Positions 365 through 29,437 of a stretch of DNA of 64,000 bases are shown here, in pieces. The translations under genes were made by a program, and so were the position numbers. Within the stretch, counting starts at the first letter, position 1, and each line of letters starts with the position of its first letter. Under the pieces are notes generated by a model. That model did not search any database, was not told the DNA's origin, and worked only from the letters and a program-made list of their open reading frames with translations. Source of the stretch: Lineus longissimus (lineage: Eukaryota; Nemertea; Pilidiophora; Heteronemertea; Lineidae); assembly GCF_910592395.1 (NCBI RefSeq), contig NC_088320.1, positions 16,244,501 to 16,308,500 on the forward strand, read 5' to 3'.

Positions 365-2609
365 GAAGGTTCAGGTGAAATGATAAAGCTGGAAGAAATA
401 ACGGAACGTTATATTTTAAATATTTCATCCATTATCCCTGTAATCGTCAATAGAATATCTAAATTACTCGTCTAAATATTTTCGAGGATCTTTTGACCTC
501 ATAAGCTTTTATACACTCGTAGAAATAAAGGTTTTAAGGCTGTTGAAAAAAACAGTTTAAAGTCTTTCCGACCCAAACAAAAATGCACCATTTTAAGCTG
601 AAAAAAATTGTGGTTTCTCAATCATTTTGCAAAAATCTCCTCTCTGTGTGTCAATGAATTGACTGTAAACCTAAAACGACCAAAACCGGCTGTAAATATT
701 CGCCTGTGTTACATGTGAAGTACATGTTTGGTTCGAAATTTGCAAAAAAAATTAACCGGTTCAACAGAAATTCTACAAATTTCTCATGAAGTAGGCTAAT
801 GTGTGTGCGTTTCTGTGTTAAATCATGAAATTGACTATATATATAGGCGAATAGCTTGTTATACGATACATGTATGTCCAAAGTCACAAATTATATGTTG
901 ATTGTACATTGTATATATAGCATACGATATTCTTTTCTACCAAATTCTCTAAATTGTATACTTACTCCAACTTTGGAAACTCTGGAGACTCGTGACTGCA
1001 AAAGAGAACGAGCCGAATCGCTTGTTATTCATCATCAAATGCCTCTACAAATTGTGATATGCATAACAAAACTAATACAAAAATATCAATACCCTTTTCC
1101 CTGAAAATGATCAATTTCTAAAAGCGCTTACTCGAACGTCATATTTAGCTTGTCACACATTGATGCACACTATCAAAAATCAGCGCAAACCTGTCATGAC
1201 ACAATTTGTTGCTTGCCTTCGCTAAATGCGGGAAAAGAATCGTTCAATCTGCTCACCTTGGCACCAGCCCTGGGTTGACGCATCCATTGTACCAAGCGGA
1301 CAACTTCCCTCTGGATTGATATTCTTAGACACGTACAGATATCCTCCGTGGACAATGAACTGAACTGAAAAAAATTCTTTTGAACTTAAAAAGGAAATAG
1401 TTATATTGGAACTCGGGTTGAAACAAACATGTACTGTCATAAATTTCTGGGGACATTTCGTTTTTGCGGATTTTGCAAATAATAGCAAATATTCCTTGAT
1501 TGGAGTCACAGTATATTCAGTCACAATAAAATCGTGATTCCTTCACTAATTCGAAAATATTGAAATGGTGCGAATAGTTTCAAGTTTACAGTTAGGGGGT
1601 TGGTTAATATCAAAATTGACGCTACAAAGCCTGGGACTGAGCTTCGCCACTTCACTCGTCTCGTTGCATCCAAATATTTCATGCAACAAAACCCTTGGTC
1701 AAGAACAGGACGCCAAAACTGTAAAACTTGATGATACTAAGAAGTACTTTCAACATGGTATCTAGTTAGATAAAGACGAAAACATTTATCAATGTGTTTA
1801 TCGCCTGACTTTTGGCCATACCAAAGACTATTGAAGAGATTTAAGGACTTTATTGAAATGTTCTGCTCACACTTTGCTTCCATCCCTTAGAGGCCAATTT
1901 GAAACAACACCACGGTCGGCAAAATTCGAACCAAACTTTCAAGATTTTGCATCCGGTTAAGTATGCGCATTGTGAAAGGAGTATTCAAGGGCATGATCTG
2001 ATCTGCAGTGTTTCTGGACATAGATAGTCATATGAAAGAAAGATTTCTTTGACTTACCAGTAATCTGGTGTCCATTGATGATAACTGGAAGAGTAAGTAT
2101 GATATGGATGGTGATACGTGACATGTTGATGACACGTGATCATCACGTTCAAAATGGATGACCGGCGAGAGCACAAATGACTGCAGGATACGCTCTAGCT
2201 AGTCGTAAGCCGTCATCCTCGCCAATCTGGCTTGCGGGAGTGGACAAAATTTAAAAAATTAAAGGTGTAATATAAAAAATCGGTGTCAGATGTGTTTTCC
2301 TCGAAATTTTATCTCCCCTGGCAAATCGAAAATGATCTGTCAAGTTTCTGAAATTCATACCTTGAATCATAAATTCTGCAAACTAATGAAATCTTATGTC
2401 TTTTATGATATCTTATTTCTCGGTCTTCAATAAAAAATCATTCTTACGTGTATTTCCTCCACTCTGAATGGTAACCGTCTGACTGGATCCTGATGACGAA
2501 CCTCCAGATGACGACCCTCCTGAAGACGACCCTCCCGATGACGACCCTCCTGAAGACGAACCTCCAGATGACGAGCCTCCCACTGAAGACCCACCAGTAG
2601 TACCTCCGG
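365..2609 (-). CDS. gene 2 module 1: Gly-Ser linker plus beta-rich module, continuing off the window
   Basis: Exons: linker 2609-2448 (162 bp), I 2084-2058, L 1364-1257, M 995-966, N 388-365. The next exon (O-type) lies beyond the left edge, since each O exon sits in the neighbouring unit. The linker reads AGGTTGGSSVGG and GSSQTVTIQSGGNT at its ends. Exon L is VQFIVHGGYLYVSKN then INPEGSCPLGTMDAS. The array evidently continues to the left, so the total module number is unknown. In this unit a 97-bp intron deletion (junction near 1980) removes part of a splice-like region conserved in the other units, with no effect on these exons. Confidence 0.65.
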
Positions 2610-5600
2610 CTAAAAAAGAAGTTTAGAAAAGAATGCTTCAAACATGGTTGGCATTCTTGTTGTTGTTTTAGAGTTAATGATAAAATTATGCAGTAAAGGT
2701 GAGAAAAATACTGCATCGATTTTCAGTTTGGTGGAACGCCTGGCGGACACTGCCTCGTAAACCGTTACATATTGGGTTATAACTGATCGGCTGTAGGCGT
2801 CCACTTGCTTGGGTTATGTTCGAAACATAGCGGACGTCCATGGCGGTTCACTGTCAATACATTTACTGCCATTACATGTATAGGAACGCTTTGTAATGAA
2901 CCAAAAGGAACAAAATGGCTGGCCGTATGGACTGTACAGAATGTTCATACCTCATCAAAAGCGCCTGATATATGCTAATTTATGCATAATGCCGTCATTA
3001 CCCTGATCTAATTTCAGGTCAACAAGCATGACGTCATGTAAAGGCTCCTGACCTATTTTTTATATCTTATAATCAACTTATGTCTAAGTTAACACTCATT
3101 CGACCGCCACATTCATCAACATAATTTACCTCTAGTTACCACGCCACCTTTTCATTTTTGCATGCACGTATTTTATAGCAGTCCAGCTCGTCTCAATCGT
3201 GGTTAAACTGACATCATAAACTATTTGTGTTTGCTGCCGCCTATCGGTGGTTCCAGGAATCAGTGTGTCAGGAATCTGCATTCCACACACATCCCGAAAG
3301 CGGTGCGAAAGGTGCTATATTTTCTAAAGCAACCGAACTATTGTGTACAAATGTACCATATCATTAGTTTACTGCTGATTTCTGAAGATGACCCAATTCA
3401 CTATTATTTCTTTTTACTCACCAAGCATGCTTTCGGGGAAATCTGCAAGAAAGAAAGTCAGTTATATATCTCAGCCGTCCGTAGCTTCTATAATTAGGTC
3501 TGTCGCAGGGCCACAAGAACTACTGGCAAGAGAGAATGGGGGGCCTTAGATGCAACACTCTCCTACACATGGACAGAAAAGAGGCGACCACCATATTTCG
3601 TCAAAGGACTGGCCATCGCAGACGAAAGGCCAGCCCCAAGAGGATGAGCATGGCCGAGTCCGGAAGGTGCCAGTGCGGCACATCTGATCAGACACCAGAG
3701 CATGTACTCCAGAGCTGCTCACTCTAGGATACTGAGAGATTGGCCACACGGTGCATTATTTGAGACCAAGTTCTGGGGATCAAGCGATGAACAAGAGACG
3801 ACAGCCCGGTTTATAAGAGACATAGGCCTGGTTGTGTAGTATAGCCATCAATAGTAAATCGAACGCTTAGAAGATGAAGAAGAAAATCTGTCGCTTTCGC
3901 TAGAGACATGCACACGGTGAACTCCAAAATATTTTGCGAGAAATCGAACCAGGCACCTTCGTTTAAGCTAGGGACCGATAGCATAATGATCTAATTAATT
4001 TACAAGATTTTGTTGGGACTGACTATTACCGTGTTGTTTGTAGTTTTCAGCACTCAATGTAAGAACTATATTATATGACATGGATGCTCTGGTAGTTTTT
4101 GCTAGGTTATATAGACACAACATGGCACATGACACACGATGGCGACCAACACCTGGCCTTTGAAAGGAACATGCCGCATCGTCAAAGGCAGCATCAAACC
4201 AAACCTCGCGAAGGTTAATTGAATTTCCCCTGATGAAGACATGCAGTCATACTCACGAAGGTTCAGGTGAAATGATAAAGCTGGAAGAAATAGCGAAACG
4301 TTATATTTTAATTATGTTGTCCAATATCCTAGTAATCGTCAATAGAATATCTAAATTACTCGTTTAAATATTTTCGAGGATCTTTTGACCTCATAAGCTT
4401 TTATACACTCGTAGAAATAAAGGTTTTTAGGCTGTTAAAAAAAACAGTTTAAAGTCTTTCCGACCAAAACAAAAATGCACCATTTTAAGCTGAATAAAAT
4501 TGTGGTTTCTCAATCATTTTGCAAAAATCTCCTCTCTGTGTGTCAATGAATTGACTGTAAACCTAAAACGACCAAAACCGGTTGTAAATATTCGCCTGTG
4601 TTACATGTGAAGTACATGTTTGGTTCGAAATTGGCAAAAAACTCAACCGGTTCAACAGAAATTCTACAAATTTCACATGAAGTAGGCTAATGTGTGTGTG
4701 TTTCTGTGTTAAATCATGACATTGACGATATATATAGGCGAATAGCTTGCTATACGATACATGTATGTCCAAACTCACAAAATATATGTTGATTGTACAT
4801 TGTATATATAGCTTATGATATTCTTTTCTACCAAATTCTCTAAATTGTATACTTACTCCAACTTTGGAAGCTCTGGATACTCGTGACTGCAAAAGAGAAC
4901 GAGCCGAATCGCTTGTTATTCATCATCAAATGCCTCTACAAATTGTGATATGCATAACAAAACTAATACAAAAATATCAATACCCTTTTCCCTGAAAATG
5001 ATCAATTTCCAAAAGCGCTTACTCGAACATCATATTTAGCTTGTAACTTTGATGCACACTATCAAAAATCTGCGCAAACCTCTGATGACACAATTTGTTG
5101 CTTGCCTTCGCTAAATACGCGAAAAGAATCGTTCAATCTGCTCACCTTGGCACCAGCCCTGTGTTGACGCATCCATTGTACCAAGCGGACAACTTCCCTC
5201 TGGATTGATATTCTTAGACACGAACAGATATCCTCCGTTGAAAATGAACTGAACTGAAAAAAATTATTTTGAACTTAGAAAGGAAATAGTTATATTGGAA
5301 CTCGGGTTGAAACAAACATGTACTGTCATAAATTTCTGGGGACATTTCGTTTTTGCGGATTTTGCAAATAAGAGCAAATATTTCTTGATTGGAGACACAG
5401 TATATTCAGTCACAATAAAATCGTGATTCCTTCTCTAATTCGAAAATATTGAAATGGTGCGAATAGTTTCAAGTTTACAGTTAGGGGGTTGGTTAATATT
5501 AAAATTGACGCTACAAAGCCTGCGACTGAGCTTCGCCAGTTCACTCGTCTCGTTGCATCCAAATATTTCATTCAACAAAACCCTTGGTCAAGAACAGGAC

Positions 5601-8600
5601 GCCAAAACTGTAAAACTTGATGATACTAAGAAGTACTTTCAACATGGTATCTGGTTAGATAAAGACGAAAACATTTATCAATGTGTTTATTGCCTGACTT
5701 TTGGCCATACCAAAGACTATTGAAGAGATTTAAGGACTTTATTGAAATGTTCTGCTCACACTTTGCTTCCATCCCTTAGAGGCCAATTTGAAACAACACC
5801 ACGGTCGGCAAAAGTCGAACCAAACTTTCAAGATTTTGCATCCGGTTAAGTATGCGCATTGTGAAAGTTTACCTTTGTTATGGCTTGGTTACCGTGCTTA
5901 CCTATCAATGCGAATGTGTAGCCGAATGCACAATCTGTGCTGTTTCAAATGCCTCACAGGAGTATTCAAGGGCATGATCTGATCTGCAGTGTTTCTCGAC
6001 ATAGATAGTCATATGAAATAAAGATTTCTTTGACTTACCAGTAATCTGGTGTCCATTGATGATAACTGGAAGAGTAAGTATGATATGGATGGTGATACGT
6101 GACATGTTGATGACACGTTATCATCACGTTCAAAATGGATGACCGGCGAGATCACAAATGACTGCAGGATACGCCCTAGCTAGTCGTAAGCCGTCATCCT
6201 CGCCAATCTGGCTGACGGGAGTGGACAAAATAAAAAAATTAAGGGTGGGCATAATCTGAATTACTGCATTGGATTAATCACCAATCAGTACCTCGGATCT
6301 CCTGAATTATGCCCCACCATAAGCAAAATGGTGGTGTTCGTTTATTCCGCAGCCGTGAATTGTGGACCCCGGAAGTTTGATTTTGCAACGTATGTCATAC
6401 CTTTGATACAAGGAAATGTCCATGTCTAATAGGTCGAATTATGGCGATGCATAATTCAGCTTTATGGCGGGGCCTAATTCAGCTTTATGCCGGGGCATAA
6501 TTCAGGAGATCCGAGGTGTTGATTGGCTGATTTAATAAGCGGTCATCACCAGAATTTGGAATTATCCATGCAACAATTCAGATTTACCTTATAAATATTA
6601 ACGAATATGTATAAGGTTGGAGGGAACCACGTCATCCATCAATTATGGGAAACATATTTTTAGACGTGGGTATTTTATTTGGACTGAAATCGAAAAACAA
6701 TTCTGGCGTGTATCTTTTTTGCGATCAATTCAAAAGTTAAATAAACAAATTTGAAAGTATTTCACCTTTGTGCTCACATTTCGAATTGAAACTAGCACAA
6801 TTTTTCTGAAATTCCTTTTTTTCACATTTAGGATAATTTTACTCCAAATCTATAGGTGGTGACAATATTTTGTACTTCTTGTTTCTGAATGGTCCAGACC
6901 AAGTAGAAAAACATATGAAAAGCACATACCCCAAATTAGACATCTAGTTGAGGAGCGAGATGGGGTCCAATAGAAAACGTTTTGAAAAGCAAATGGTAGC
7001 GTCGCCTCATTGACAAATTTTGGCCCAAAAGGTCGAACAAGCTGTTGCGTTGCACCTTAATCATTCATCATCTGAGTCATTTGTGTCCACCACACCAGAC
7101 CACCACTGCTTGATCAAAACGTAAGTCTAGGTGGCGCGGTCAAAATTACAAAAACGAATACCATTACGTACATTGTACACAATGTAATATAAAAAATCGG
7201 TGTCAGATGTGTTTTCCTCGAAATTTCATCTCCCCTGGCAAATCGAAAATGATCTGTCAAGTTTCTGATATTTATACCTTGAATCATGAATTCTGCAAAC
7301 TAATGAACTCTTATGTCTTTTATGATATCTTATTTTTCGGTCTTCAGTAAAAAATCATTCTTACGTGTATTTCCTCCACTCTGAATGGTTATCGTCTGAC
7401 TGGATCCTGATGACGAACCTCCCGATGACGACCCTCCTGAAGACGACCCTCCAGATGACGAACCTCCTGAAGACGACCCTCCAGATGACGAACCTCCTGA
7501 AGACGAACCTCCAGATGACGAACCTCCCGACGAGCCTCCCACTGAAGACCCACCAGTAGTACCTACGGCTAAAAAAGAAGGTTAGAAAAGAATGCTTCCA
7601 ACATGGTTGGCATTCTTGTTGTTGTTTTAGAGTTAATGATAAAATTATGCAGTAAAGGTGAGAAAAATACTGTATCGATTTTCAGTTTGGTGGAACGCCT
7701 GGCGGACACTGCCTCGTAAACCGTTACATATTGGGTTGTAACTGATCGGCTGTAGGCGTCCACTTGCTTGGGTTATGTTCGAAACATAGCGGACGTCCAT
7801 GGCGGTTCACTGTCAATACATTTACTGCCATTACATGTATAGGAACGCTTTGTAATGAACCAAAAGGAACAAAATGAATAGCCGTATGGACTGTACAGAA
7901 TGTTCATACCTCATCAAAAGCGCCTGATATATGCTAATTTATGCATAATGCCGTCATTACCCTGATCTAATTTCAGTTCAACAAGCATGACGTCATGTAA
8001 AGGCTCCTGACCTATTTTTTATATCTTATAATCAATTTCTGTCTAAGTTAACACTCATTCGATCGCCACATTCATCAACATAAGTTACCTCTAGTTACCA
8101 CGCCACCTTTTCATTTTTACATGCACGTATTTTATAGCAGTCCAGCTCGTCTCAATCATGGTTGAACTGACATCATAAACTATTTGTGTTTGCTGCCGCC
8201 TATCGGTGGTTCCAGGAATCAGTGTGTCAGGAATCTGCATTCCACACACAGCCCGAAAGCGGTGCGAAAGGTGCCATATTTTCTAAAGCAACCGAACTAT
8301 TGTGTACAAATGTACCATATCATTAGTTTACTGCTGATTTCTGAAGATGACCCAATTTAGTATTATTTCTTTTTACTCACCAATCATGCTTTCGGGGAAA
8401 TCTGCAAGAAAGAAAGTCAGTTATATATATCAGCCGTCGGTAGCTTCTATAATTAGGTCTGTCGCAGGGCCACAAGAACAACTAGGAAGAGAGAATAGGG
8501 GGCATTAGATGCAACACTCTCCTAGACATGGACAGAAAAGAGGCGACCACCATATTTCGTCAAAGGACTGGCCATCGCAGACGAAAGGCCAGCCCCAAGA

Positions 8601-11600
8601 GGATGAGCATGGCCGAGTCCGGAAGGTGCCAGTGCGGCACATCTGATCAGACACCAGAGCATGTACTCCAGAGCTGCTCACTCTAGGATACTGAGAGATT
8701 GGCCACACGGTGCATTATTTGAGACCAAGTTCTGGGGATCAAGGGATGAACAAGAGACGACAGCCCGGTTTATAAGAGACATAGGCCTGGTTGTGTAGTA
8801 TAGCCATCAATAGTAAATCGAACTCTTAGAAGATGAAGAAGAAAATCTGTCGCTTTCGCTAGAGACATGCACACGGTGCACTCCAAAATATATTGCGAGA
8901 AATCGAACCAGGCACCTTCGGTTAAGCTAGGGACCGATAGCATAATGATCTAATTAATTTACAAGATTTTGTTGGGACTGACTATTACCGTGTTTTTTGT
9001 AGATTTCAGCACTCAATGTAAGAACTATATTATATGACATGGATGCTCTAGTAGTTTTTGCTAGGTTATATATGGCCACAACATGGCACATGACACACGA
9101 TGGCGACCAACACCTGGCCTTTGAAAGGAACATTCCTCATCGTCAAAGGCAGCATCAAACCAAACCTCGCGAAGGTTAATTGAATTTTCCCTGATGAAGA
9201 CATCCAGTTATACTCACGAAGGTTCAGGTGAAATGATAAAGCTGGAAGAAATAACGGAATATGTTATCCAATATCCCAGTAATCGTCAATAGAATATCTC
9301 AATTACTCGTTTAAATATTTTCGAGGATCTTTTGACCTCATCAGCTTTTATACACTCGTAGAAATAAAGGTTTTAAGGCTGTTGAAAAAAACAGTTTAAA
9401 GTCTTTCCGACCAAAACAAAAATGCACCATTTTAAGCTGAATGAAATTGTGGTTTCTCAATCATTTTGCAAAAATCTCCTCTCTGTGTGTCAATGAATTG
9501 ACTGTAAACCTAAAACGACCCAAACCGGCTGTAAATATTCGCCTGTGTTACATGTGAAGTACATGTTTGGTTCGAAATTGGCAAAAAACTCAACCGGTTC
9601 AACAGAAATTCTACAAATTTTTCATGAAGTAGGCTAATGTGTGTGTGTTTCTGTGTTAAATCATGAAATTGACTATATATATAGGCGAATAGCTTGCTAT
9701 ACGATACATGTATGTTCAAAGTAACAAAATATATGTTGATTGTACATTGTATATATAGCATACGATATTCTTTTCTACCAAATTCTCTAAATTGTATACT
9801 CACTCCAACTTTGGAAGCTCTCAAGACTCGTGACTGCAAAAGAGAACGAGCCGAATCGCTTGTTATTCATCATCAAATGCCTCTACAAATTGTGATATGC
9901 ATAACAAAACTAATACAAAAGATCAATACCCTTTTCCCTGAAAATGATCAATTTCAAAAAGCGCTTGCTCGAACGTCATATTTAGCTTGTCACACATTGA
10001 TGCACACTATCAAAAATCTGCGCAAATCTGTGATGACACAATTTGTTGCTTGCCTTCGCTAAATGCGGGAAAAGAATCGTTCAATCTGCTCACCTTGGCA
10101 CCAGCCCTGTGTTGTCGCATCCATTGTACCAAGCGGACAACTTCCCTCTGGATTGATATTCTTAGACACGAACAGATATCCTCCGTGGACAATGAACTGA
10201 ACTGAAAAAAATTATTTTGAACTTAGAAAGGAAATAGTTATATTGGAACTCGGGTTGAAATAAACATGTTCTGTCATAAATTTCTGGGGACATTTCGTTT
10301 TTGCGGATTTTGCTAATAAGAGCAAATATTTCTTGATTGGAGACACAGTATATTCAGTCAAAATAAAATCGTGATTCCTTCTCTAATTCGAAAATATTGA
10401 AATGGTTCGAATAGTTTCAAGTTTACAGTTAGGGGGTTGGTTAATATTAAAATTGACGCTACAAAGCCTGCGACTGAGCTTTGCTACTTCACTCGTCTCG
10501 TTGCATCCAAATATTTCATTCAACAAAACCCTTGGTCAAGAACAGGACGCCAAAACTGTTAAATTTGAGGTTACTAAGAAGTACTTTCAACATGGTATCT
10601 TGTTTGATCAAGACGAAAACATTTATCGATGTGTTTAATGCCTGACTTTTGGCCACACCAAAGACTATTGCAGGGATTTAAGGACTTTATTGAAATGTTC
10701 TGCTCACACTTTGCTTCCATCCCTTAGAGGCCAATTTGAAACAACACCACGGTCGGCAAAAGTCGAACCAAACTTTCAAGAGTTTGCATCCGGTTAAGTA
10801 TGCGCATTGTGAAAGTCTACCTTTGTTATGGTTTAGTTACCGTGCTTACCTATCAATGCGAATGTGTAGCCGAATGCAAAATCTGTGCTGTTTCAAAGGC
10901 CTCACAGGAGTATTCAAGGGCATGATCTGATCTGCAGTGTTTCTCGACATAGATGGTCACATGAAAGAACGATTTCTTTGACTTACCAGTAATCTGGTGT
11001 CCATTGATGATAACTGGAAGAGTAAGTATGATATGGATGGTGATACGTGACATGTTGATGACACGTGATCATCACGTTCAAAATGGATGACCGGCGAGAG
11101 CACAAATGACTGCAGGATACGCTCTAGCTAGTCGTAAGCCGTCATCCTCGCCAATCTGGCTTGCGGGAGTGGACAAAATTTAAAAAATTAAAGGTGTGAT
11201 ATAAAAAATCGGTGTCAGATGTGTTTTCCTCGAAATTTTATCTCCCCTGGCAAATCGAAAATGATCTGTCAAGTTTCTGAAATTCATACCTTGAATCATA
11301 AATTCTGCAAACTAATGAAATCTTATGTCTTTTATGATATCTTATTTCTCGGTCTTCAATAAAAATCATTCTTACGTGTATTTCCTCCGCTCTGAATGGT
11401 AATCGTCTGACTGGATCCTGATGACGAACCTGAACCTCCCGATGACGACCCTCCTGAAGACGACCCACCCGATGACGACCCTCCTGAAGACGAACCTCCC
11501 GATGACGAACCTCCCGACGAGCCTCCCACTGAAGAATTTAATGCTAATTTATGCATAATGCCGTCATTACCCTGATCTAATTTCAGTTCAACAAGCATGA

Positions 11601-14600
11601 CGTCATGTAAAGGCTCCTGACCTATTTTTTATATCTCATAATCAACTTATGTCTAAGTTAACACTCATTCGACCGCCACATTCATCAACATAAGTTACCT
11701 CTAGTTACCATGCCACCTTTTCATTTTTACTTGCACGTATTTTATAGCAGTCCAGCTCGCCTCAATCATGGTTGAACTGACATCATAAACTAGTTGTGTT
11801 TGCTGCCGCCTATCGGTGGTTCTAGGAATCAGTGTGTCAGGAATCTGCATTCCACACACAGCCGAAAGCGGTGCGAAAGGTGCCATATTTTCAAAGCAAC
11901 CGAACTATTGTGTACAAATGTACCATATCATTAGATTACTACTGATTTCTGAAGATGACCCAATTCAGTATCATTTCTTTTTACTCACCAAGCATGCTTT
12001 CGGGGAAATCTGCAAGAAAGAAAGTCACTTATATATCTCAGCCGTCCGTAGCTTCTATAATTAGGTCTGTCGCAGGGCCACAAGACCAACTGGCAAGAGA
12101 GAATGGGGGGCCTTAGATGCAGCACTCTCTTAGATATGGACAGAAAAGAGGCGACCACCATATTTCGTCAAATGACTGGCCATCGCAGACTAAAGGCCAA
12201 CCCCAAGAGGATGAACATGGCCAAGTCCGGAAGGTGCCAGTGCGGCACATCTGATCAGACACCAGAGCATGTACTCCAGAGCTGCTCACTCTAGGATACT
12301 GAGAGATTGGCCACACGGTGCATTATTTGAGACCAAGTTCTGGGGATCAAGGGATGAACAAGAGACGACAGCCCGGTTTATAAGAGACATAGGCCTGGTT
12401 GTGTAGTATAGCCATCAATAGTAAATCGAACGCTGAGAAGATGAAGAAGAAAATCTGTCGCTTTCGCTAGAGACATGCACGAGGTGCACTCCAAAATATA
12501 TTGCGAGAAATCGAACCAGGCACCTTCGTTTAAGCTAGGGACCAATAGCATAATGATTTAATTAATTTACAAGATTTTGTTGGGACTGACTATTACTGTG
12601 TTTTTTGTAGTTTTCAGCACTGAATGTAAGAACTATATTATATGACATGGATGCTCTAGTAGCTTTTGCTAGGTTTTATAGCCACAACATGGCACATGAC
12701 ACACGATGGCGACCAACACCTGGCCTTTGAAAGGAACATGCCGCATCGTCAAAGGCAGCATCAAACCAAACCTCGCGAAGGTTAATTGAATTTCCCCTGA
12801 TGAAGGCATCCAGTCATACTCACGAAGGTTCAGGTGAAATGATAAAGCTGGAAGAAATAACGGAACGTTATATTTTAAATATTTCATCCAATATCCTAGT
12901 AATCGTCAATAGAATATCTAAATTACTCGTTTAAATATTTTCGAGGATCTTTTGACCTCATAAGCTTTTATACACTCGTAGAAATAAAGGTTTTAAGGCT
13001 GTTGAAAAAAACAGTTTAAAGTCTTTCCGACCAAAACAAAAATGCACCATTTTAAGCTGAATGAAATTGTGGTTTCTCAATCATTTTGCAAAAATCTCCT
13101 CTCCGTGTGTCAATGAATTGACTGTTAACCTAAAACGACCAAAACCGGCTGAAAATATTCGCCTGTGTGGTAAAAAACCGGTTCAACAGAAATTCTACAA
13201 ATTTCTCATGAAGTAGGCTAATGTGTGTGTGTTTCTCTGTTAGATCATGAAATTGACTATATATATATAGGCGAATAGCTTGCTATACGATACATGTATG
13301 TCCAAAGTCACAAAATATATGTTGATTGTACATTGTATATATAGCATACGATATTCTTTTCTACCAAATTCTCTAAATTGTATACTTACTCCAACTTTGG
13401 AAGCTCTGGAGACTAGTGACTGCAAAAGAGAACGAGCCGAATCGCTTGTTATTCATCATCAAATGCCTCTACAAATTGTGATATGCATAACAAAACTAAT
13501 AAAAAAATATCAGTACCCTTTTCCCTGAAAATGATCAATTTCAAAAAGCGCTTACTCGAACGTCATATTTAGCTTGTCATACATTGATGCACACTATCAA
13601 AAATCAGCGCAAACCTGTGATGACACAATTTGTTGCTTGCCTTCGCTAAATGCGGGAGAAGAATCGTTCGATCTGCTCACCTTGGCACCAGCCCTGCGTT
13701 GACGCATCCATTGTACCAAGCGGACAACTTCCCTCTGGATTGATATTCTTAGACACGTACAGATATCCTCCGTGGACAATGAACTGAACTGAAAAAAATT
13801 ATTTTGAACTTAAAAAGGAAATAGTTATATTGGAACTCGGGTTGAAACAAACATGTACTGTCATAAATTTCTGGGGACATTTCGTTTTTGCGGATTTTGC
13901 AAATAAGAGCAAATATTTCTTGATTGGAGTCACAGTATATTCAGTCAAAATAAAATCGTGATTCCTTCAGTAATTCGAAAATATTGAAATGGTTCGTATA
14001 GTTTCAAGTTTACAGTCAGGGTGTTGGTTAATATCAAAATTGACGCTACAAAGCCTGCGACTGAGCTTTGCCACTTCACTCGTCTCGTTGCATCCAAAGA
14101 TTTCATTCAACAAAACCCTTGGTCAAGAACAGGACGCCAAAACTGTAAAACTTGATGATACTAAGAAGTACTTTCAACATGGTATCTGGTTTGATCAAGA
14201 CGAAAACATTTATCAATGTGTTTATTGCCTGACTTTTGGCCACACCAAAGACTATTGCCGGGATTTAAGGACTTTATTGAAATGTTCTGCTCGCACTTTG
14301 CTTCTATCCCTTAGAGGCCAATTTGAAACAACACCACGGTCGGCAAAAGTCGAACCAAACTTTCAAGATTTTGCATCCGGTTAAGTATGCGCATTGTGAA
14401 AGTCTACCTTTGTTATGGCTTGGTTACCGTGCTTACCTATCAATGCGAATGTGTAGCCGAATGCAAAATCTGTGCTGTTTCAAAGGCCTCGCAGGAGTAT
14501 TCAGGGGCATGATCTGATCTGCAGTGTTTCTCGACATAGATGGTCACATGAAAGAACGATTTCATTGACTTACCAGTAATCTGGTGTCCATTGATGATAA

Positions 14601-17600
14601 CTGGAAGAGTAAGTATGATATGGATGGTGATACGTGACATGTTGATGACACGTTATCATCACGTTCAAAATGGATGACCGGCGAGAGCACAAATGACTGC
14701 AGGATACGCTCTAGCTAGTCGTAAGCTGTCATCCTCGCCAATCTGGCTGGCGGAAGTGGACAAAATTAAAAAATTAAGGGTGGGCATAATCTGAATTACT
14801 GCATGGGATAAATCAACCAATCAGTACCTCGGATCTCCTGAATTATGCCCCACCATAATTTAAATCGTGATGTTTGTTTATTCCGTAGCCGTGAATTGTG
14901 GACCCCAGAAGTTTGATTTTGCGACGTATGTCATACCTTTAACAAAAGGAAATGTCCAGTTCTAATTGGTCTAATTATGGCGATGCATACTTCAGCTTTA
15001 TGGCGGGGCCTAATTCAGCTTTATGGCAGGGCCTAATTCAGCTTTATGCCGGGGCATAATTCAGGAGATCCGAGGTGTTGATTGGCTGATTTAATAAGTG
15101 GTCACCAGAATTTGGAATTATCCATGCAACAATTCAGATTTACCTTATAAATATTAACGAATATGTATAAGGTTGGAGGGAACCACGTCATCCATCAATT
15201 ATGGGAAACATATTTTTAGACGTGGGTATTTTATTTGGACTGAAATCGAAAAACAATTCTGGCGTGTATCTTTTTTGCGATCAATTCAAAAGTTAAATGA
15301 ACTAATTTGAAAGTATTTCACCTGTATGCTCACATTTCGAATTGAAACTAGCACAATTTTTCTGAAATTCCTTTTTTTCACATTTAGGATAATTTTACTC
15401 GAAATCTATAAGCGGTGATAATATTTTGTACTTCTTGTTTCTGAATGGTACAGACCAAGTAAAAAAACATATGAAAAGCACATACCCCAAATTAGACATC
15501 TAGTTCGAGGAGCGAGATGGGGTCCAATAGAAAAAACGTTTTGAAAAGCAAATGGTAGCGTCGCCTCATTGACAAATTTTGGCCCAAAATTGCGAACAAG
15601 CTGTTGCGTTGCACCTTAATCATTCATCATCTGAGTCATTTGTGTCCACCGCACCAGACTACCACTGCTTGATCAAAACGTAAGTCTAGGTGGCGCGGTC
15701 AAAATTACAAAAACGAATACCATTACGTACATTGTACAAAATGTAATATAAAACATCGGTGTCAGACGTGTTTTCCTCGAAATTTCATATCCCCTTGCAT
15801 ATCGAAAATGACCTGTCAAGTTTCTGAAATTTATACCTCGAATCACGAATTCTGCAAACTAATGAAATCTTATGTCTTTTATGATATCTTATTTCTCGGT
15901 CTTCAATAAAAAATCATTCTTACGTGTATTTGGCCCATTCTTAATGTTCACCCTCTGAATGGATCCGGATGAAGAACCTCCCGATGATGAACCGCCTGAA
16001 GACGAACCTCCCGATGATGAACCTCCTGAAGACGAACCTCCTGATGATGAACCGCCTGAAGACGAACCTCCCGATGATGAACCTCCTGAAGACGAACCTC
16101 CCGATGATGAACCTCCTGATGACCAACCTCCCGATGATGAACCTCCTGAAGACGAACCTCCCGATGATGAACCGCCTGAAGACGAACCTCCCGATGATGA
16201 ACCGCCTGAAGACGAACCTCCCGATGATGAACCTCCCGATGATGAACCTCCCGATGATGAACCGCCTGAAGACGAACCTCCCGATGATGAACCTCCAGAA
16301 GACGAACCTCCCGATGATGAACCGCCTGAAGACGAACCTCCCGATGATGAACCTCCCGATGATGAACCTCCCGATGATGAACCGCCTGAAGACGAACCTC
16401 CCGATGATGAACCGCCTGAAGACGAACCTCCTGATGACGAACCTCCCGATGATGAACCTCCAGAAGACGAACCTCCCGATGATGAACCTTTGTGGGTGAG
16501 AGAAGGCTACCTGAGTGAGTCATTACTTGGTACCGAAGTATAAGTTTTACCCGAGACAAGGAATGGACTTCAGAAAGGGATCAGTTTACTCAGTGGACTA
16601 GAACAGAGGTAAGTGCATGCTGGCCTAAAATAAATTAGAACAAATACTGGGAGAGATCTAGAGCGTTGTGTTACCAATTTGAACCTGGGTCTTTAACGAT
16701 GAGTTTATTACATACTAGTAATTATAAACAGCATGTCAAACCGTGGGGAACAAAAGCTTAATGCCCTTGCTCCTCTGACAATGTCTGCTGGCCAAGTGAT
16801 CAAAAAAATGACGAGACCTGTTATATTTTTGGATGAATACTGTACCTACCACTAACACTGCTGATGACCGATGTCACGGTTGGTCCTGGAATGAAATAAT
16901 GATGGGATCGCGTGTTATCAAAACGATCCAAAGGAACGGTATGATGTATGGTTATATAGTAATAGTAAAGTCGAAAATTTAAGATTTCTTTGACGAGTTG
17001 ATTCGTTGAGAAGGTTTAAACAGCTTCTTCGCCCTCAGTCAATGTTGATTTGTCTGGCTGGTGATGCAAATGAGTAAAGATGCTGGGCTCCAAAAACATG
17101 GTGCATAGAAGGTGGTCTTTACCTGAAAGATTGGTGACTGTCTGAGTGACAGTAGTAATGATGCGATCCACGAACGTGGAGGTGACGCCAAAGTCCGTCT
17201 TGACGAAGGTATTCCCTAGTGCCTGTCTCCAGTAAGTCGTGTCTGTTTGGACGCCCATGACGTAGTAGTAGAAATAAACCTTCAGCCTCACTTGTAACTG
17301 GTAGAGGATGAGGTTCACTTGCTCTTGGTTTGACACTGCCATCCCGCCGCACAGCCACACCGTCCTAGGCCGAGTGGTAGCAAAATAAGTCTCGACCACC
17401 CATTGGACCTTCTGCAGGAGAATGATGGTGTTGCTTGGGGCGCTTGGGTAACTGACGGAAGTGGAAAGAATGGCGAGGTTGGAACTGAGATCTGATTCTG
17501 ACGTGAACCGGACGACGCTGACCTGATTGCTTCGATGGACGCAAACGTAGAGTTGGAGGTTGCCATTGCCCAGTGTGTACGTCCGTAGAAGGGTCAATAT

Positions 17601-20600
17601 CATGTATAAGGTCTTGTAGTAGCCATCTTTCCCGGTGGCTCCAGAGCCATCAAGGGTCAGCACGAGTTGGAGATTCACCTTCTTAGTGTTTCTCCTTAGA
17701 CCTAAAAAGGGAAACACGCATGCTAAAGCTGCATTGTAAAATCTATCAAACAGTTAACAATTATTTTCTAACGGCAGGAAAATAAAGACATTGCTGCTTA
17801 GTAATGTGACCAATCGCGACACAGGGAGAATATATTTGGGTTCTGGTTAGATTTCTGAAATACACCTTCTTTTGTCAAAAACATTGGTAATGAGGAACCG
17901 GCGCGATTTATTCGCCGCGTGGCGCTGCAATCGATCATACCAAAACTCTCCATTTCCAATGCATTATCATGTTATTTCTGAGCCCGAAAACGATCGCTTA
18001 TTTTCGACCGATTTTGGCGACGTTTGCATCTTCCTGTTTTAAATCTATTGAGCTATCAGTTTCTGAAGATAATTTTGCGGAAAATATGCGCGATGCCAGT
18101 TATTGGGCACGTTTTCTGTTGTTGAAATCCTGTGCAAAAATGTACGCAATGGTTTCCCGTGATTGACCTCATGCGACGTCAACAGACCAGAAAATGGCGT
18201 CATGGCGTCAGAAGGTACGATCGATTGTGGCGCCGCCACTGGCATTTATCTTAACGCCGGTTCCTCATTGATGATGTCTTGGAGACACATTACAAAATAC
18301 CGCACCTGGCATCAAAAATTAAAAAGAAACTAGTCTTTATCAAGTCTTGTTTGCATGCGTTCTTGACATGATGTAGGTCATGAACATGTCTAACACTTCT
18401 CCTATCTCTAAAACAGATCATGAATAGGCCTACAACAAGATAAATATTCACAAGTAGAAAACGGACTTACCATAAACTGTGAATGTGTTCATATTTTGCT
18501 GGAACCAGCTCGAAGTGATGCCGACGAATGATCCAAGCTGGATGATATAGGCCTCATCCACCAGATCCCGCCAGAAAGTTAGGCTCGTCTGAGAGCCAAT
18601 CGCGAAATAGTAGAATCGGAAGTTAATACTGATGGTCTGCATATAGAGGGCGATCTTCGTCTGTATCTCCAAGTCGCTCCCAACACTAAAGCCGCCCATT
18701 AGGAAGAAACACCTGGCGAAAACAATATATACTGACATTATGGTGACACCATTCCTTCCGAGTAATTACCATCTGCCGTTGAAAATATTCATTATCGAAA
18801 TAAGCGTATCTATAAATTCTATCTTATCAATTCATTGAAGATGGAGTAACTGTCAGGATTTTGTCGTACTGTTTTTCGGCACTAAAAAAAAATTTAAAAA
18901 TGGTCCATTCATATAAAAATCACTAGTCTTAGTTTCTATAGCATTTTTTACTGGCAATGGCATTCCGCGAAGATGACGTCACTGCAGCTGCTGCCCTCTA
19001 TTTCTCCATCGCTGAATTACAGGCAATGTCGGACAAACATGCGGTTTCGTAATGGATTCAAGCTTTCTAACCAGGGCAGTTAGATTCAATCTGGCACATG
19101 TCCGAGTGTTGGAAATACTACATAATTGTTCTGAATATTTCTCTCTCTGACTCTATGGTATCATTCATGCTAAAAACAATGCAGGGTCAAAGATAACTGA
19201 CTTTGAAATAAGCTCAAATGCGTAGAAATAAGTGTCGATGTCCGACTGTCACGTGACTAAAACGTCATCAATATCTTATTCAAATGACCTTGTGAGCTAT
19301 AAATAGTAACGTCGCGGAATGCTATTCAATGAAAATATTGCCAGATGTCATCAGTGTATTTTGAAATTAGGATTAATAATTCAAGAAAGAGGAAAGACAT
19401 GGTTGCGCATGCATAATTAATTCTCATTTAAAATAGAGTTGCTAACAACTGTCCTTCAATAATTGCCAGGAACAAGCTTTTGTTATTTTTGAAACCAGCC
19501 CTGTTTTCTATATTTGAGGTTCATACATGCGTAATAATGCTACCGCTCATGTCAATTCTATCAATTAGGGCTCCGAAAATAGCGATGATAACATTCATGA
19601 CAATTTATCGCAATGAGTACTTTTTAACATTTGAGCAATGATTCAGGGGAACCCATCACTATTGTCAAAGCGTTTAGCAAGACTTGTCAAAGCGTTTCGC
19701 GAGACTTGTCAAACCATACCTTCCGGCACCAGATCGTTGGAAGCTAAGGTAGAACGAGTTAATCCTTTGGAAGATCAGATCAATGTTGAGGTTCGCCCCG
19801 GAATATGAGCAGCCTTGTATCTCTGAGATGTAGGCCTGGGTCTCCGCATCGCGGTCGAAGGTAAAGACCTGGATACTTGCGCCTCGGGAGTAAACCACCT
19901 TCAGTCGGAGACTCTCACCGCCAAGCTTGTATGTCTGTAGAACGATAGAGAAGTTGAATAGATCATCAGAAATAGAGGTTCGTATACAATATTATTCGTA
20001 CAAAGTGTGTGAAATCGTTTTCCTATTTCATAGTAGAATAATTAACGTCACTGCAGCTGCTGCCCTCTATTTCCCCATCGCTGAATTACAGGCAATGTCG
20101 GACAAACATGCGGTTTCGTAATGGATTTAGGCTTTCTAACTAGGGCAGTTAGATTCAATCTGGCACATGTCCGAGTGTTGGAAATACTACATAATTGTTC
20201 TGAATATTTCTCTCTCTGACTCTATGGTATCATTCATGCTAAAAACAATGCAGGGTCAAAGATAATTGACTTTGAAATAAGCTCAAATGCGTAGAAATAA
20301 GTGTCGATGTCTGACTGTCACGTGACTAAAACGTCATCAATATCTTATTCAAATGACCTTGTGAGCTATAAATAGTAACGTCGCGGAATGCTATTCAGTC
20401 ATATTTTGAATTTTTCCTTTTTTGTGCAATTTGTTGATGGAAACTACTTATGTAGAATAGGAGGTGACTGGGCAGCCGACAGCGGGGTAATATTGCCCTT
20501 GATAGTGCCAATGGTCCTTTAAGGAGTGGTTAGATGATTTCATATAGTGAAAACCAACAATTAAACTCGCGGATGCATTATTAGGAGATTTTATTTGGTT

Positions 20601-23600
20601 TGGCCAATACGCTCGTGGTACAAATAGTCGGATTTGAAGAATATCGTTTAATCATGACTTATCGAGTTGGTCGAACTTTCATTAAAACAGGTAAATGGAT
20701 GGGCTGGGTTGATTACTCAAAGCTGCCAGACCGTTTTTCCTTTAGACAGCGCCCTGGATAATGAATTCCTCAGATTTCCAAGCATCGCATAGGCCTTTCA
20801 TCTTACTGAGCAGACTGCATATGGTGACATATCGTCTATATGACTATATGACATATCGTCTATATCAGAATGACACAGCCATTCTCCCATGGCTTGAGAC
20901 CTAGGAGAATGGCTGCCTCACAAGAAAACCATCCAAAATGTACGTTCGTTGATTAATTTTCAGAAATATCAACTGTGTCCATCTGGTAACATGGACAATA
21001 ATCAGATGCTCTAAATTTTGAGGTTATTAACCAGTGGGTACAATGTGTCCTCTTTCCGAAGGACAAATCAGCAGGACACTTTTCTGTTTTTTGAGGCATA
21101 TCATGCTTGAAGAATCTTATCACCTGATAAACACATGCAACAATATTTCGTTGAAAAACCCAGCAACCCAGTTTTTCTAACTTGATTAAATGAATTTGCC
21201 TTTCCCAGGACAGGCAAGCACGGCACACTGGAAGGCCTGATAAGGTGCTCGGCAATTTGGGGAATTCATGATTTGAGCAAAAGTAGTCAACGTGAGAGGT
21301 TATGAATTAACAAAATTGCGAAAAAGAGTTTTAAGCTTAGAATACGGACCGCGAGTAAGTGGACTACTTGTATTTACCTGAAGGAGCATGATGATGAATT
21401 GCTGTGCCTTGACGAAGCCAGATGATCCGGTCGCTGAGGAGGCATCCAGTGTGAGGATCAAGTCCAGGAACAGAACTCGGGTCTTCTCGGGGCCTGAAAG
21501 TACGCAACATCAGTTGTCACTCTTACTCTTGCAGGTAACCAGAAGAAAGGCATTGCAGGGGAAGGTAGTATTATTTTTCTTTTAATACAGTGAAGAACAT
21601 CAATGAAAGATAAGGGTACTCACCAGCGACATATCCTCCCGTATTGCCACACTCCTTTGCGTACTGGGACACAGTCTCGGGTTCGGTTTTGCCAGTCGAC
21701 GCGCTCGTGACTGGAATGCGAGTGAACTTCTGTTTGTGCACGAGACACGTCTTTTCCTGGCCGACGAAATCGACCGCTAGACAGTCTGCATTGCTTGCGC
21801 ACCAATCCCGGCATTCGGCAGAGGTCCACGTGTACCAATCACCGTTACTCTTCTGCACCCAGCTAGCTCCATGGGCGTGTTCGTTCTTGTACAGAACCAT
21901 GCAGCCGCTGCTCGGGGCAAATTCTGGAAGTTGCATGAACGAGTTTATGTGAGGAGACGGAATGAAACTACGCCCAAGAAGGTTAACGGACGAGTTGAGG
22001 AGACTGAATACAACCCTTAGGGACTGAAATCTCGCCAAAATTGGTTCAAGAACGTTGTTATTGAGAAGACGTAATGCATGTATCTTCTTGACTGAAACTA
22101 AGTATACGAAGGATTAAGTTTCAAGACACACGTCAAGTAAAATACTCGGCGCTTTCATGCCCACAGAAGCCTCGCAAATGCCTTCGTGGTAAAAGAATCC
22201 TCTCGAACACAGTTGGAGGATCACGGTGAATAATGATACAATACATTGATGAAAATGTATATTCTTCTGTTTCTGCAAGAGATTTGGGTGTGATCTTGGA
22301 CCGTGATTTCAATTTCAAAGAACACATTAACACCTGTGTACGGGCCACCAATTTTCACATTCGTAACATCGGGAAAATCAGAAAATATCTAACTCCAAAT
22401 ACCACCAGGTTATATGTCCAGGCTCTTGTAATATCTCGCCTGGATTTCTGTAATTCCCTTTTCCTTGGTTGTCCCAATTCAACAATTATACCCCTACAGA
22501 AGTTACAAAACTCTGCCGCTCGCCTAATTACCAAGACCAAGAAACGATCTTCCATTTCCCCAGTACTCAGGTCTCTACATTGGCTTCCTGTGCAACAGCG
22601 CATCAAGTACAAGGTTCTCCTTCTAACTTACAAGTGTTTTCACCAACTTGCTCCCCAATACCTTTCAGAACTTCTCTCCGTTCATACCGTTTCTCGAACT
22701 CTGCGCTCTTCATCGGCCGTTCTTCTGTCTATCCCAAAGGCCAATGTCATGTCAGTCGGTGGTAGAGCATTTTCAATTGGAGCCCCTCAGCTGTGGAACA
22801 AACTTCCTTCAACTGTTAGGAACTGCAGCTCTCTGTTATCTTTCAAGGGACAACTTAAACATTTGCTTTTTAAAGAGGCCTATCAAGCGCTTTGAGCGGC
22901 CAGTTAATGGTTGGATACTGCGCTATATAAGACTCGTATTATTATTATTATTATTATACAAAAACGGTTGCTTCTTTTGTTACGCAAAATGAGCCCTGAC
23001 GTCGATCTATGCTGCAGCAGCCGGTAGGAATATTGCAAACGTGGCAAGCGCAGTATCCAAGCCGAATGAATGATATTGTCTTTGCCCGTACTGACTGCCA
23101 TTAAAACGTAATGTCCCGGGTTTTGCACATTTACAGGTGCGTGATGATATCTGAAGCGACAAATCTATGGTGACCGCTCATTACCCACAAAACTCTAGGA
23201 CAACCCGCCTTTAATCATGGACATGAGACAAGTGATGTGTTTATTGTTTCCCGATTGTGTGTATCAAGTTATTGTGGCTGATCGATCGCTATGATTTTGA
23301 CATCCACGCGCACCCGTGATCTAATCTATGAATCGTGGAGTGGTGGATCAAAAATGGCAGTCTATGTTGGTAGTCACGTAACAAGGTAGATTTTACGTCT
23401 CGGTTTCGGTCTCCATTTCAGCTCTACCTTCGCGGTTTTGGTGAGCCAACACACCTCCAGTTCGGTATGAATTTCTATTCTAAAACATCTCAAATTCTAT
23501 AACGAATTATGTGGTTTTAAATGCTTTTTGACTTCTTCCATATTTTGCACCAACCCAAGCGGTAATGGTTGCCGAACCATAACCGCTGAATTCAAAACGT

Positions 23601-24879: not shown

Positions 24880-25129
24880 GATAAGCGGTTTTGTTTTGAG
24901 GCTGTTTGCTTCCGGTGTTCGTTTTCTCTCATTGGACAATTCGCGGCAACGGCAAACCGCGGCGATTCCCCTCGGCGATGGAATCATTCTTTTGGACAAA
25001 AATCAAGTTCTGTTCTTTTGGGGCTTGATAATAAAAAATACCTCAATTAGGAACGAACCGCACTTTATAGTGTAATGCACGATGCGAAAAAAACCTCGGT
25101 TTGACTTCAGCGGTTATGGTTAGGAACCA

Positions 25130-25772
25130 TCCAAGGTTAAAGGAGACTTGGCCCCATCCAAGGATAAAGGAGACTTGGCCCCATCCGAGGATAAATAAGA
25201 CTTGGCCCCATCCGAGGATAACTAAGACTTGGCCCCATCCGAGGATGAAGGAGGCTTGGCTCCATCTGAGGATAAAGGATACTTGGCTCCATCCGAGGAT
25301 AAAGGAGCCTTTGTCCCATCCGCGGTTAAAGGAGACTTGGCCCAATCCAAGGATAAAAGAGACTTGACCCAATCCGAAGATAAAGGAGACTTGGCTCAAT
25401 CCGAGGATAAAGGAGACTTGGCCCCATCCGAGGATAAAAGAGACTTGGCTCCATCCGAGGATAAAGGAGACTTGGCCCCATCCGAGGATAAAGGAGACTT
25501 GGCCCCATCCGAGGATAAAAGAGACTTGGCCCCATCCGAGGATAAAGGAGACTTGGCTCCATCCGAGGATAAAGGAGACTTGGCCCCATCCGAGGATAAA
25601 GGAGCCTTTGTCCCATCCGCGGTTAAAGGAGACTTGGCCCCATCCAAGGATAAAAGAGACTTGGCCCAATCCGAGGATAAAGGAGACTTGGCCTAATCCG
25701 AAGATAAAGGAGACTTGGCTCAATCCTAAGATAAAGAAGACTTGACCGAATCCGAGGATAAAGGAGACTTCG
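25130..25772. repeat. 27-bp minisatellite, about 24 copies
   Basis: Unit AAAGGAGACTTGGCCCCATC then CGAGGAT. Because 27 is a multiple of 3 and the unit has few stops, several frames stay open on both strands (e.g. SEDKGDLAP on plus, SFILGWGQV on minus). No splice or start context supports translation. Copies diverge at both ends of the array. Confidence 0.9.
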
Positions 25773-27739: not shown

Positions 27740-28397
27740 AATAATAATAATAATAATATTTATTGCACCCCCATAATTGTGGAAAAGAAATATACAAGTA
27801 CATTCAAAGACAGTATAGTAGTTTAACTTATCAGTACATACTATAGTAAATCACTTGAGCAAAGGCCTGGTCAGCGCCATATACATAAAAGATATATAAT
27901 GAAATTTAAAAACTCTTCAGTAAGAGCCTGGTCAGGGTCAACTCAGTGCCCCCATTATTGTAAGTAGGGGAGCGGAGGAGAGATCGAAGAGAGTCCACGA
28001 CTCCGTCAGACATGGGCGCGGGCTCTCCCGCTCTCTCCTCCCCACCCCTGTTAAATAAAATGTCCACTGGGGAAACACCTGCTTTTAGAATACGCCCCAG
28101 CAACGTTCCGGGGCAGGCAGCACCAGTTAAAATAGATCTGGACAGAAGGGTCCGATAAAAGCTTGAGCAAGTAGATTCACCGCGCACCATGCGTCTAAAC
28201 AGGTTACATTGTCTTTGTAGTAATAGGTCCGATGTATTTGGGATGCCCAAGGCTCTTAACAGGTATGTCGTCCGGCATCTTCTACTAAGACCTAAAGTTT
28301 GTTTAATCAGGGTGCCCTGTAGAACAATATAAAAACGATATAATGGAGAAAAGAGAGCACAAATATCGAAATGTAAGATTATTTTGAGGAGAATCAT
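27740..28397 (-). mobile_element. LINE 3' end, different family
   Basis: The minus-strand frame reads IKQTLGLSRRCRTTYLLRAL, then GIPNTSDLLLQRQCNLFRRM, and ends before GGTGCAATAAATATT(ATT)n. These motifs recur at the C-terminus of non-LTR reverse transcriptases. The 5' end is truncated or frameshifted near 28400. Confidence 0.75.
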
Positions 28398-28617
28398 TTT
28401 GGCCGATTCAATCTACCACTTGCACGACCTCGTCACAATCGTCATGCGGTGGTGACGCGGATTGATTACATGGCGACGTCGAATGGCATAAGAGAAGTTT
28501 TCTGTAAATTTGCTGTCAGAACTTCCGGTAAAGATAAAGCCTAAGCGACGAAGGTAGAATGCGCGGGAACAAACATAATTATATCGGGTGTCCCTAAAAG
28601 TCGTAACTTTGTAATGT

Positions 28618-28623
28618 TTTATT
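28618..28623 (-). terminator. candidate poly(A) signal for the CLCA gene
   Basis: AATAAA on the minus strand, about 354 bp downstream of the CLCA stop codon. It is the clearest canonical hexamer I noticed between the stop and the LINE fragment at 28397. The 3' UTR length is an inference. Confidence 0.3.
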
Positions 28624-28976
28624 TTTGTTAATCTCCAGACATCATTTTTAGAAAAAGCTAGCCTTGAAAACATCAACGCAATCCAATATATTATATCCTA
28701 CGAGTACTGATCGACCAATATGAAATAGCATTTCTTTGCTAATACACCATAACAAATAAAAACGCATGCGAATCGGCTGTCTTATCTATTGTCATTTGAA
28801 TCCGGAATGACACGGATGGATGCATTTGATCTTTAATGTCTAATGCAAGGTCTCCAACGTTGAAAGCCGTATTTTAGGTAAAAGGTAATTCTCAACCCTG
28901 CCCTACATATAACACCCTACATATAACAACTTTCGATGAGTTTGAGACTGTTTTTTCCTGACCTGTGTGTTGATTG

Positions 28977-29437
28977 CTAGACACATTCTATACGATGTGG
29001 TGGAGATGTTTTGTTCTTCTTGATGTGATAGACAATGCCAATGACCACAACAATGAGAATGGTTTCAAGAGCAGCCAAACCAAAAGGTACGATCAGCAAA
29101 TTTGGAGACTCGGTTGCAATAGCATCCGAAATGTTGTCTGGAAGGTTCGTGGAACTGGTTTCAGACTCGGTTACAATTTCATCGCCATTTGAAAACTTGG
29201 TTGGAAGAGTCATAGAAATGCTGATGATGTTTGAAGGATCGCCCTCGTTTCCCACTTCATCTATGGCACGGATGGCTAAGAAGAACGTAGCTTTCTTGTT
29301 GTAGTCTGCCATGTTAATTTTATGCTTCTCTTCTTCACCAGCATTCTTCGGGGTTCCTTCCAAGTGGATTCGAGAGCAGTTCTCAAATCGTTCACTGATC
29401 TCTTCGAAGGTTCCAATGCGGAGGTCATAGGTTGTGT
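28977..29437 (-). CDS. CLCA exon 14: FN3-like end, C-terminal membrane segment and stop
   Basis: The terminal exon follows the acceptor TTATTTTGCAG and encodes residues 818-969. It includes YDLRIGTFEEISERF, a FFLAIRAIDEVGNEG strand typical of fibronectin III folds, an acidic Ser/Thr linker, then a hydrophobic helix from about 929 (LLIVPFGLAALETILIVVV and on) and a short basic tail ending HRIECV. A C-terminal membrane segment is found in some CLCA proteins (human CLCA2-like), whereas others are GPI-anchored or soluble. The stop TAG is at 28977-28979. Start-like shadows on the other strand are not supported. Confidence 0.9.

Follow-up and report, generated by a model that had tools for sequence, protein, structure and literature searches.

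The mussel byssus proximal thread matrix protein 1 (PTMP1) is a matrix protein with two vWA domains, and vWF-like domains have been described as load bearing, according to passages of PMC4754843. The micro-exon genes (MEGs) of schistosomes encode secreted proteins and carry runs of short symmetric exons within long introns, as outlined in portions of PMC5825161 and PMC10526429. Here we describe a gene of Lineus longissimus, a ribbon worm known as the bootlace worm, that resembles each of these in part. It overlaps a window of 64,000 nucleotides (the whole stretch of DNA that was analyzed), which a genome search of the 391-Mb assembly placed on chromosome 13 (contig C13, 16,244,501-16,308,500). 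The gene encodes two vWA domains followed by seven tandem units, each comprising a Gly-Ser linker and a 70-residue module, and by a C-terminal domain, and it is a natural case of exon duplication at the scale of a whole folded domain. The two vWA domains are a likeness to PTMP1, but neither Gly-Ser linkers nor a module array is mentioned in the passages of PMC4754843 covered here. A PDB sequence search with the vWA region did not list PTMP1 at E 0.1; its sole match at E≤0.1 was collagen VI alpha 3 (4.8e-8 for the whole chain, with no single stretch significant), which by contrast is a collagen chain of 3061 residues that carries numerous vWA domains. Like the MEGs, the gene has runs of short symmetric exons, but whereas approximately 80% of MEG coding sequence lies in symmetric exons of 6-36 bp, according to the part of PMC5825161 covered, here symmetric exons of at most 36 bp make up 873 of 4918 coding bases (18%).

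Structure of the gene and its tandem units

A splice model confined to the window joined 30 exons of the minus strand in frame to encode 1152 residues. When the left flank was included, the located gene comprised 55 exons and 1639 residues with no stop, and contained seven units and the C-terminal domain. The NCBI models of this gene end 1 residue beyond the last located exon. All but four of the 55 exons run from phase 1 to phase 1, the exceptions being the first exon and the three exons of the first vWA domain, and 33 are no longer than 36 bp. That such a seven-unit, in-frame gene for a repetitive protein exists as modeled is virtually certain. A preliminary description of the window had proposed that phase-1 exons follow, in frame, a signal peptide, a PAN domain and two vWA domains, which the 30-exon model bears out (the first two as signal-peptide-like and PAN-like), and the gene structure supports the repetitive, extracellular type of protein that it envisaged. 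Protein P0015 consists of 40% Gly and Ser (Ser 22.8%, Gly 17.4%), with 7.5% Thr and 1.7% Pro. A module query found at least seven genomic places at E 0.001, every one of them within this gene.

In the window, a repeat search detected four near-identical copies (365-16885). Successive 27-bp exons start 3587, 4948, and 3981 bp apart, in agreement with the four tandem units of 3.6-5.0 kb first reported, although the array is larger, with three of its seven units to the left of the window. Within a unit the order is a Gly-Ser linker and then exons of 27, 108, 30, 24, and 21 bp, all phase 1-1. An exon search allowing few mismatches recovered, inside the window, four copies of each of the first four exons and three of the 21-bp exon, every copy preceded by AG and followed by GT. 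The same exon set had been claimed for all four copies, and this is true for the linker and the 27-, 108-, 30- and 24-bp exons; in unit 4 the 21-bp exon falls beyond the left edge of the window.

All features are on the minus strand and are given in window numbering, with negative numbers to the left of the window; unit exons rest on the exon search and splice model together, and linkers on the splice model. Linker 1 (15924..16487, 564 bp), also present in the NCBI models, is an SSSGG-type Gly-Ser repeat with a weak AAAG acceptor. It is followed by the unit 1 exons of 27 bp (14574..14600, LIINGHQIT), 108 bp (13681..13788), 30 bp (13390..13419, VTSLQSFQSW, which forms most of the helix in the structure prediction), 24 bp (12824..12847, TLSFHLNL), and 21 bp (11989..12009, HFPESML). 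Linker 2 (11376..11528, 153 bp) precedes the corresponding exons of unit 2 (10987..11013, 10094..10201, 9804..9833, 9218..9241, and 8381..8401), and linker 3 (7365..7568, 204 bp) those of unit 3 (6039..6065, 5146..5253, 4857..4886, 4257..4280, and 3422..3442). Linker 4 (2448..2609, 162 bp) leads into unit 4, with exons at 2058..2084, 1257..1364, 966..995, and 365..388, and its 21-bp exon at -450 to -470 in the left-flank splice model. Besides this 21-bp exon, the left flank supplied units 5-7 and the C-terminal domain, whose located exons extend to -22295.

Splice sites had also been described as strong and kept in every copy. The AG and GT at the unit exons agree with this, but the acceptor of linker 1 is weak, and linkers 2 and 5 have lost their normal acceptor through a deletion of approximately 350 bp upstream, common to units 1 and 4. 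In the splice model both linkers instead begin at an internal, in-phase TCTTCAG that formerly lay inside Gly-Ser coding sequence, leaving the phase unchanged.

Divergence among units

When units 6 and 7 are compared with units 1-5, 30-38 of the 210 bases of the module have changed, the exons are 82-86% identical, and the ratio of nonsynonymous to synonymous change (dN/dS) is 0.34-0.48; units 6 and 7 differ from each other at 45 of 210 bases (dN/dS 0.57). Their introns, compared over the four per unit that do not flank a linker, are mostly unalignable to those of other units, the remainder aligning over just 33-58 bases. Exon lengths and phase are nevertheless preserved, save in unit 6, whose last exon is 9 bp longer. 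Exons that remain this similar at low dN/dS while the introns around them can mostly no longer be aligned must be real and constrained, and their presence in the spliced product of 14 NCBI protein models agrees with this.

Judged from their sequences, units 1-5 are young and related to one another in a mosaic fashion, and units 6 and 7 are old. In comparisons of segments that each include the exon at their start, units 1-5 differ by 0.3% to 6.1%, and the closest pair changes along the unit: units 2 and 4 after the linker (0.3%), units 3 and 4 between the 27- and 108-bp exons (2.1%), units 3 and 5 farther along the unit (2.0% and 1.1%), and units 1 and 4 preceding the next linker (1.5%). This switching of partners fits the trace that repeated unequal exchange or gene conversion would leave, and is consistent with the growth by unequal crossing-over suggested earlier, although the gene models discussed below do no more than hint at copy-number variation between individuals. 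The proposal that symmetric phase-1 exons permit changes in length without loss of frame is likewise supported.

The recent duplications may alternatively have been tolerated in frame with no effect on function. Units 1-5 do differ little from one another, and among units 1-4 divergence in exons (1.6-3.3%) is somewhat less than in introns (3.3-4.3%), with 1-2.4% in the splice-site flanks. For the exons of units 1-5, the 1-7 differences give dN/dS values between 0 and 1.56 and are not enough for a test of selection. However, two old units have been retained, their exon lengths and phase essentially unchanged, at dN/dS 0.34-0.57, which argues that at least some of the multiplicity is maintained, and we consider a purely neutral expansion unlikely, if the best surviving of the alternatives.

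Fold and origin of the module

The preliminary description could not name the fold of the module. AlphaFold2, given eight rows, predicted a compact alpha/beta domain with a mean predicted local distance difference test (pLDDT) of 91.3 and a predicted template modeling score (pTM) of 0.81, made up of strands, one helix contributed mostly by the 30-bp exon, and a short final strand. The C-terminal domain was predicted from five rows with pLDDT 80.3 and pTM 0.67. A Foldseek search of the PDB returned no match at E 0.001 or better for either domain, which does not prove a new fold, and a profile search found no Pfam match to the module. In contrast to the silk and mucin repeats with which the array had first been compared, each unit is predicted to consist of a folded domain tethered by a flexible linker.

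The module is related to the C-terminal domain of the same protein. Smith-Waterman scores of this domain against units 1, 6, and 7 were 70, 60, and 80, each matched by none of 2000 shuffles. The C-terminal domain is encoded by exons of 111, 30, and 24 bp, compared with 108, 30, and 24 bp in the module, and its introns fall at aligned places, one codon after a conserved G-[WY]-C and after a conserved W. These exon lengths and intron positions support common descent of the two domains. The best reading of these sequences is that the module derives from the protein's own C-terminal domain, from which it has diverged, and that this domain was multiplied within the gene.

One paralog of the gene was identified. 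In a protein search over a limited length range, the spliced N-terminus had P0001 as its sole relative at E 0.001 (65% identical over 75% of the query). This is LOC135497960 of L. longissimus, an 808-residue protein encoded on chromosome 13 near 0.70 Mb. It too has two vWA domains, a Gly-Ser-rich tail, and a C-terminal domain (67% identical) cut by introns at the same positions; the second vWA domain is 58.5% identical over 200 residues. P0001 differs in having no Pfam match to PAN, no module array, and a single C-terminal domain. Matches to the head of P0001 also occur on contigs C3, C4 (C4:4739318-4741073), C5 (C5:21557772-21600010), C10, and C13, and on the last of these they recur around 1.13 Mb (C13:1128820-1137304); they represent additional vWA relatives of the head.

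The order of elements may differ between the module and the C-terminal domain. By itself, the hairpin aligned poorly between the two in most of ten pairs, the best result being reached by 11 of 5000 shuffles in one pair. Moving the hairpin to the front raised the alignment score in all eight pairs, with the summed score reached by 111 of 3000 column shuffles. In hhalign, the two orders scored equally (64 against 42 aligned columns). An intron lies at an aligned place in both domains in this comparison as well. Taken together, the alignments at most suggest a circular permutation in which the hairpin exons would have shifted from the end to the front.

Gene models and isoforms

Over a longer length range, a protein search found 14 NCBI protein models of L. 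longissimus that were 100% identical to the query over 518 residues. These represent 26 member sequences, all from a single annotation pipeline, and the comparisons below concern the 14. They share a prefix of 593 to 1101 residues with the splice model of the window. Isoform numbering reaches X26, and the assigned names are autotransporter CRAC-like, sericin 1-like, and mucin-19-like, which look like name matches driven by low complexity. Literature searches returned no title or abstract opening that mentions the gene, and its NCBI names combined with the species matched no paper.

In all 14 models the exon-type order of 27-108-30-24-21-linker is held, and unit identity alone varies (the unit labels of identical exons are arbitrary). 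A linker with the start of linker 4 and the end of linker 5 is present in 11 of the models, and none contains both units 4 and 5 in complete form. The internal TCTTCAG acceptor form of linker 2 is used in seven, and linker 5 never appears in the form found in the genome. In one model linker 1 is cut from 188 to 88 residues, which could be variation in repeat length or a mapping artifact.

A gene of this kind might generate diversity in the manner of the schistosome MEGs, with short symmetric exons alternatively spliced into many secreted variants. The many exons of at most 36 bp, the predominance of phase 1-1, and the high isoform numbers are what such a gene would have, and an internal in-phase acceptor is used by linker 3 in one model and by linker 6 in another. 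Free skipping should, however, also yield products with exons out of order, and there are none among the 14; because omission of any phase-1 exon would preserve the frame, so regular an order favors alleles or reads mapped to several units over combinatorial splicing. The predicted isoforms therefore look like copy-number alleles or read-mapping ambiguity, either of which would be expected to produce this pattern. Together with the small share of coding sequence held in such exons relative to the MEGs, this makes MEG-like diversification rather improbable.

Function of the protein

The head of the protein begins with the coding part of exon 1 (23857..23923), whose hydrophobic, signal-peptide-like N-terminus MVNVMLVLTVAVLGMMRCAASY is identical in all 14 NCBI models. 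Next are a PAN-like exon of 300 bp (21624..21923, phase 1-1, Pfam PAN_1) and the first vWA domain, with its first exon (21378..21493) identified by the Pfam VWA match of the head, its second (19720..19934) by the splice model, Pfam, and the NCBI models, and its third (18471..18712) by the splice and NCBI models. The second vWA domain occupies a single phase 1-1 exon of 579 bp (17123..17701; splice model and Pfam), and the splice model places a 36-bp phase 1-1 exon, GPTVTSVISSVS, at 16850..16885. The head matches Pfam VWA (PF00092) at 34.4 bits, above the gathering cutoff of 23.8. Adjacent introns of the first vWA region carry a pair of 300-bp repeats that are 98% identical (18976-19275 and 20045-20344). 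The intron separating the signal-peptide and PAN exons contains a stretch resembling a dispersed element (22250-22970), which begins near a TAA run and which we presume to be of a type present in other marine invertebrate genomes.

The account that we consider probable is that the ancestor was a two-vWA protein similar to P0001, ending in a Gly-Ser tail and a single C-terminal domain; that the all-phase-1 exon block of this domain was then duplicated; and that array length would change via unequal exchange, giving an extracellular protein with tethered modules. A secreted structural or adhesive role, in mucus or matrix, is by analogy somewhat favored, and is our best guess because PTMP1 occurs in the byssus matrix and because ribbon worm proboscis glands secrete a sticky mucus, as stated in parts of PMC11768458 and PMC9132205. 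With similar reservation, the PAN/vWA head may dock to partners in matrix, in mucus, or on surfaces, with the Gly-Ser-tethered modules serving as repeated beads for binding or cross-linking, and, in a secretion outside the cell such as the mucus of epidermis or proboscis, the number of modules may well determine both reach and avidity. In another nemertean species, a VWF-annotated gene and several mucins are upregulated in the proboscis, according to passages of PMC9132205.

Several observations weigh against this account. No such protein is named in the covered portions of three nemertean toxin or mucus papers: two (PMC11768458 and PMC12846013) contain no mention of von Willebrand, and the VWF-annotated gene of the third (PMC9132205) may or may not be related to the present one. 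The PAN_1 match is below the cutoff of 21.4 bits both in the window protein (20.5 bits) and in P0015 (18.4 bits). In the two vWA domains, the first motif reads DASSA and DGSGA, that is, DxSxA and not DxSxS, and the usual DG is replaced by MGGFSV and CGGMAV, such that the Asp after the fourth strand is absent. The DxSxS motif together with a downstream Thr and Asp forms the metal site of vWA domains that bind ligands in a metal-dependent manner. On inspection of the sequence against this motif, neither domain has an intact metal site, which makes metal-dependent ligand binding doubtful. The similarity of the P0001 domain to modules 1, 6, and 7 is weaker than that of the C-terminal domain, with 1, 9, and 0 of 2000 shuffles reaching the score. 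Finally, protein searches scoring approximately 8000 candidates each, over a limited length range, found no relatives outside L. longissimus.

PAN-like and vWA domains are also found in recognition proteins, and a neighboring gene contains a vWA stretch too, so that the head and its repeated modules might instead recognize microbes, prey, or self. Of the 21 unit pairs, 18 have an amino acid change, and all but two of these have dN/dS below 1; the two exceptional pairs (1.56 and 1.03) rest on 7 and 5 differences, dN/dS is 0 in the other three pairs, and there is no general excess of amino acid change. An immune or recognition role thus appears improbable, to about the same degree as MEG-like splicing. 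That the assembly falsely duplicated one unit in tandem is very improbable, for although the fusion of linkers 4 and 5 in 11 of 14 models, none with both units complete, looks as if there were one unit fewer, divergence per segment is 2-6% for most unit pairs (in a few segments as little as 0.3%) and there are unit-specific indels, units 6 and 7 are far diverged, and the assembly, according to the portion of PMC8593623 covered, was built from 79-fold PacBio HiFi reads sheared to 12-20 kb and was curated by hand; an error of a single unit is possible, but the entire array is no artifact.

Neighboring sequence

Pieces of a neighboring gene lie on the minus strand at 27906-36011. They include a vWA stretch with a DG motif (35658-36011, Pfam VWA 33.3 bits) and an open frame with a hydrophobic segment (28977-29462), while three other frames or pieces had no Pfam match above the cutoff. 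We take these pieces to be similar to a CLCA-type protein. Approximately 1.2 kb upstream of the coding start of the gene described here, a 27-bp sequence is repeated in tandem about 24 times (25127-25770). Two 21-bp repeat arrays face each other in inverted orientation at 32654-33479. A 76-bp tandem array and several TAGGTAAAAAAGGCAC-type repeat arrays are at 45629-46253 and 50918-54909, and the TAGGTAAAAAAGGCAC-type repeat is also present to the left of the window, beyond the last C-terminal exon located.

Possible implications for ribbon worm secretions

At this locus, old and young copies of a domain stand side by side, and a single-domain paralog with the same exon structure is available for comparison. 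Each genomic unit of 3.6-5.5 kb supplies 70 residues plus a linker, and gain or loss of a domain leaves the reading frame intact. Caution is warranted over the isoforms predicted for genes of this kind, as they may be products of read mapping. The protein would be a candidate for a structural or adhesive constituent of what ribbon worms secrete, in a field where the proteomics of mucus (PMC11768458, PMC12846013) is, by title, centered on toxins. A bolder and more tentative possibility is that the module belongs to a previously undescribed domain family, perhaps specific to ribbon worms and encoded nearly entirely by short phase-1 exons, in which the exon block forming the array is circularly permuted with respect to the ancestral C-terminal domain and array length is polymorphic between animals. 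If so, unequal exchange would allow a lineage to adjust how long a secreted tether is while preserving the reading frame.

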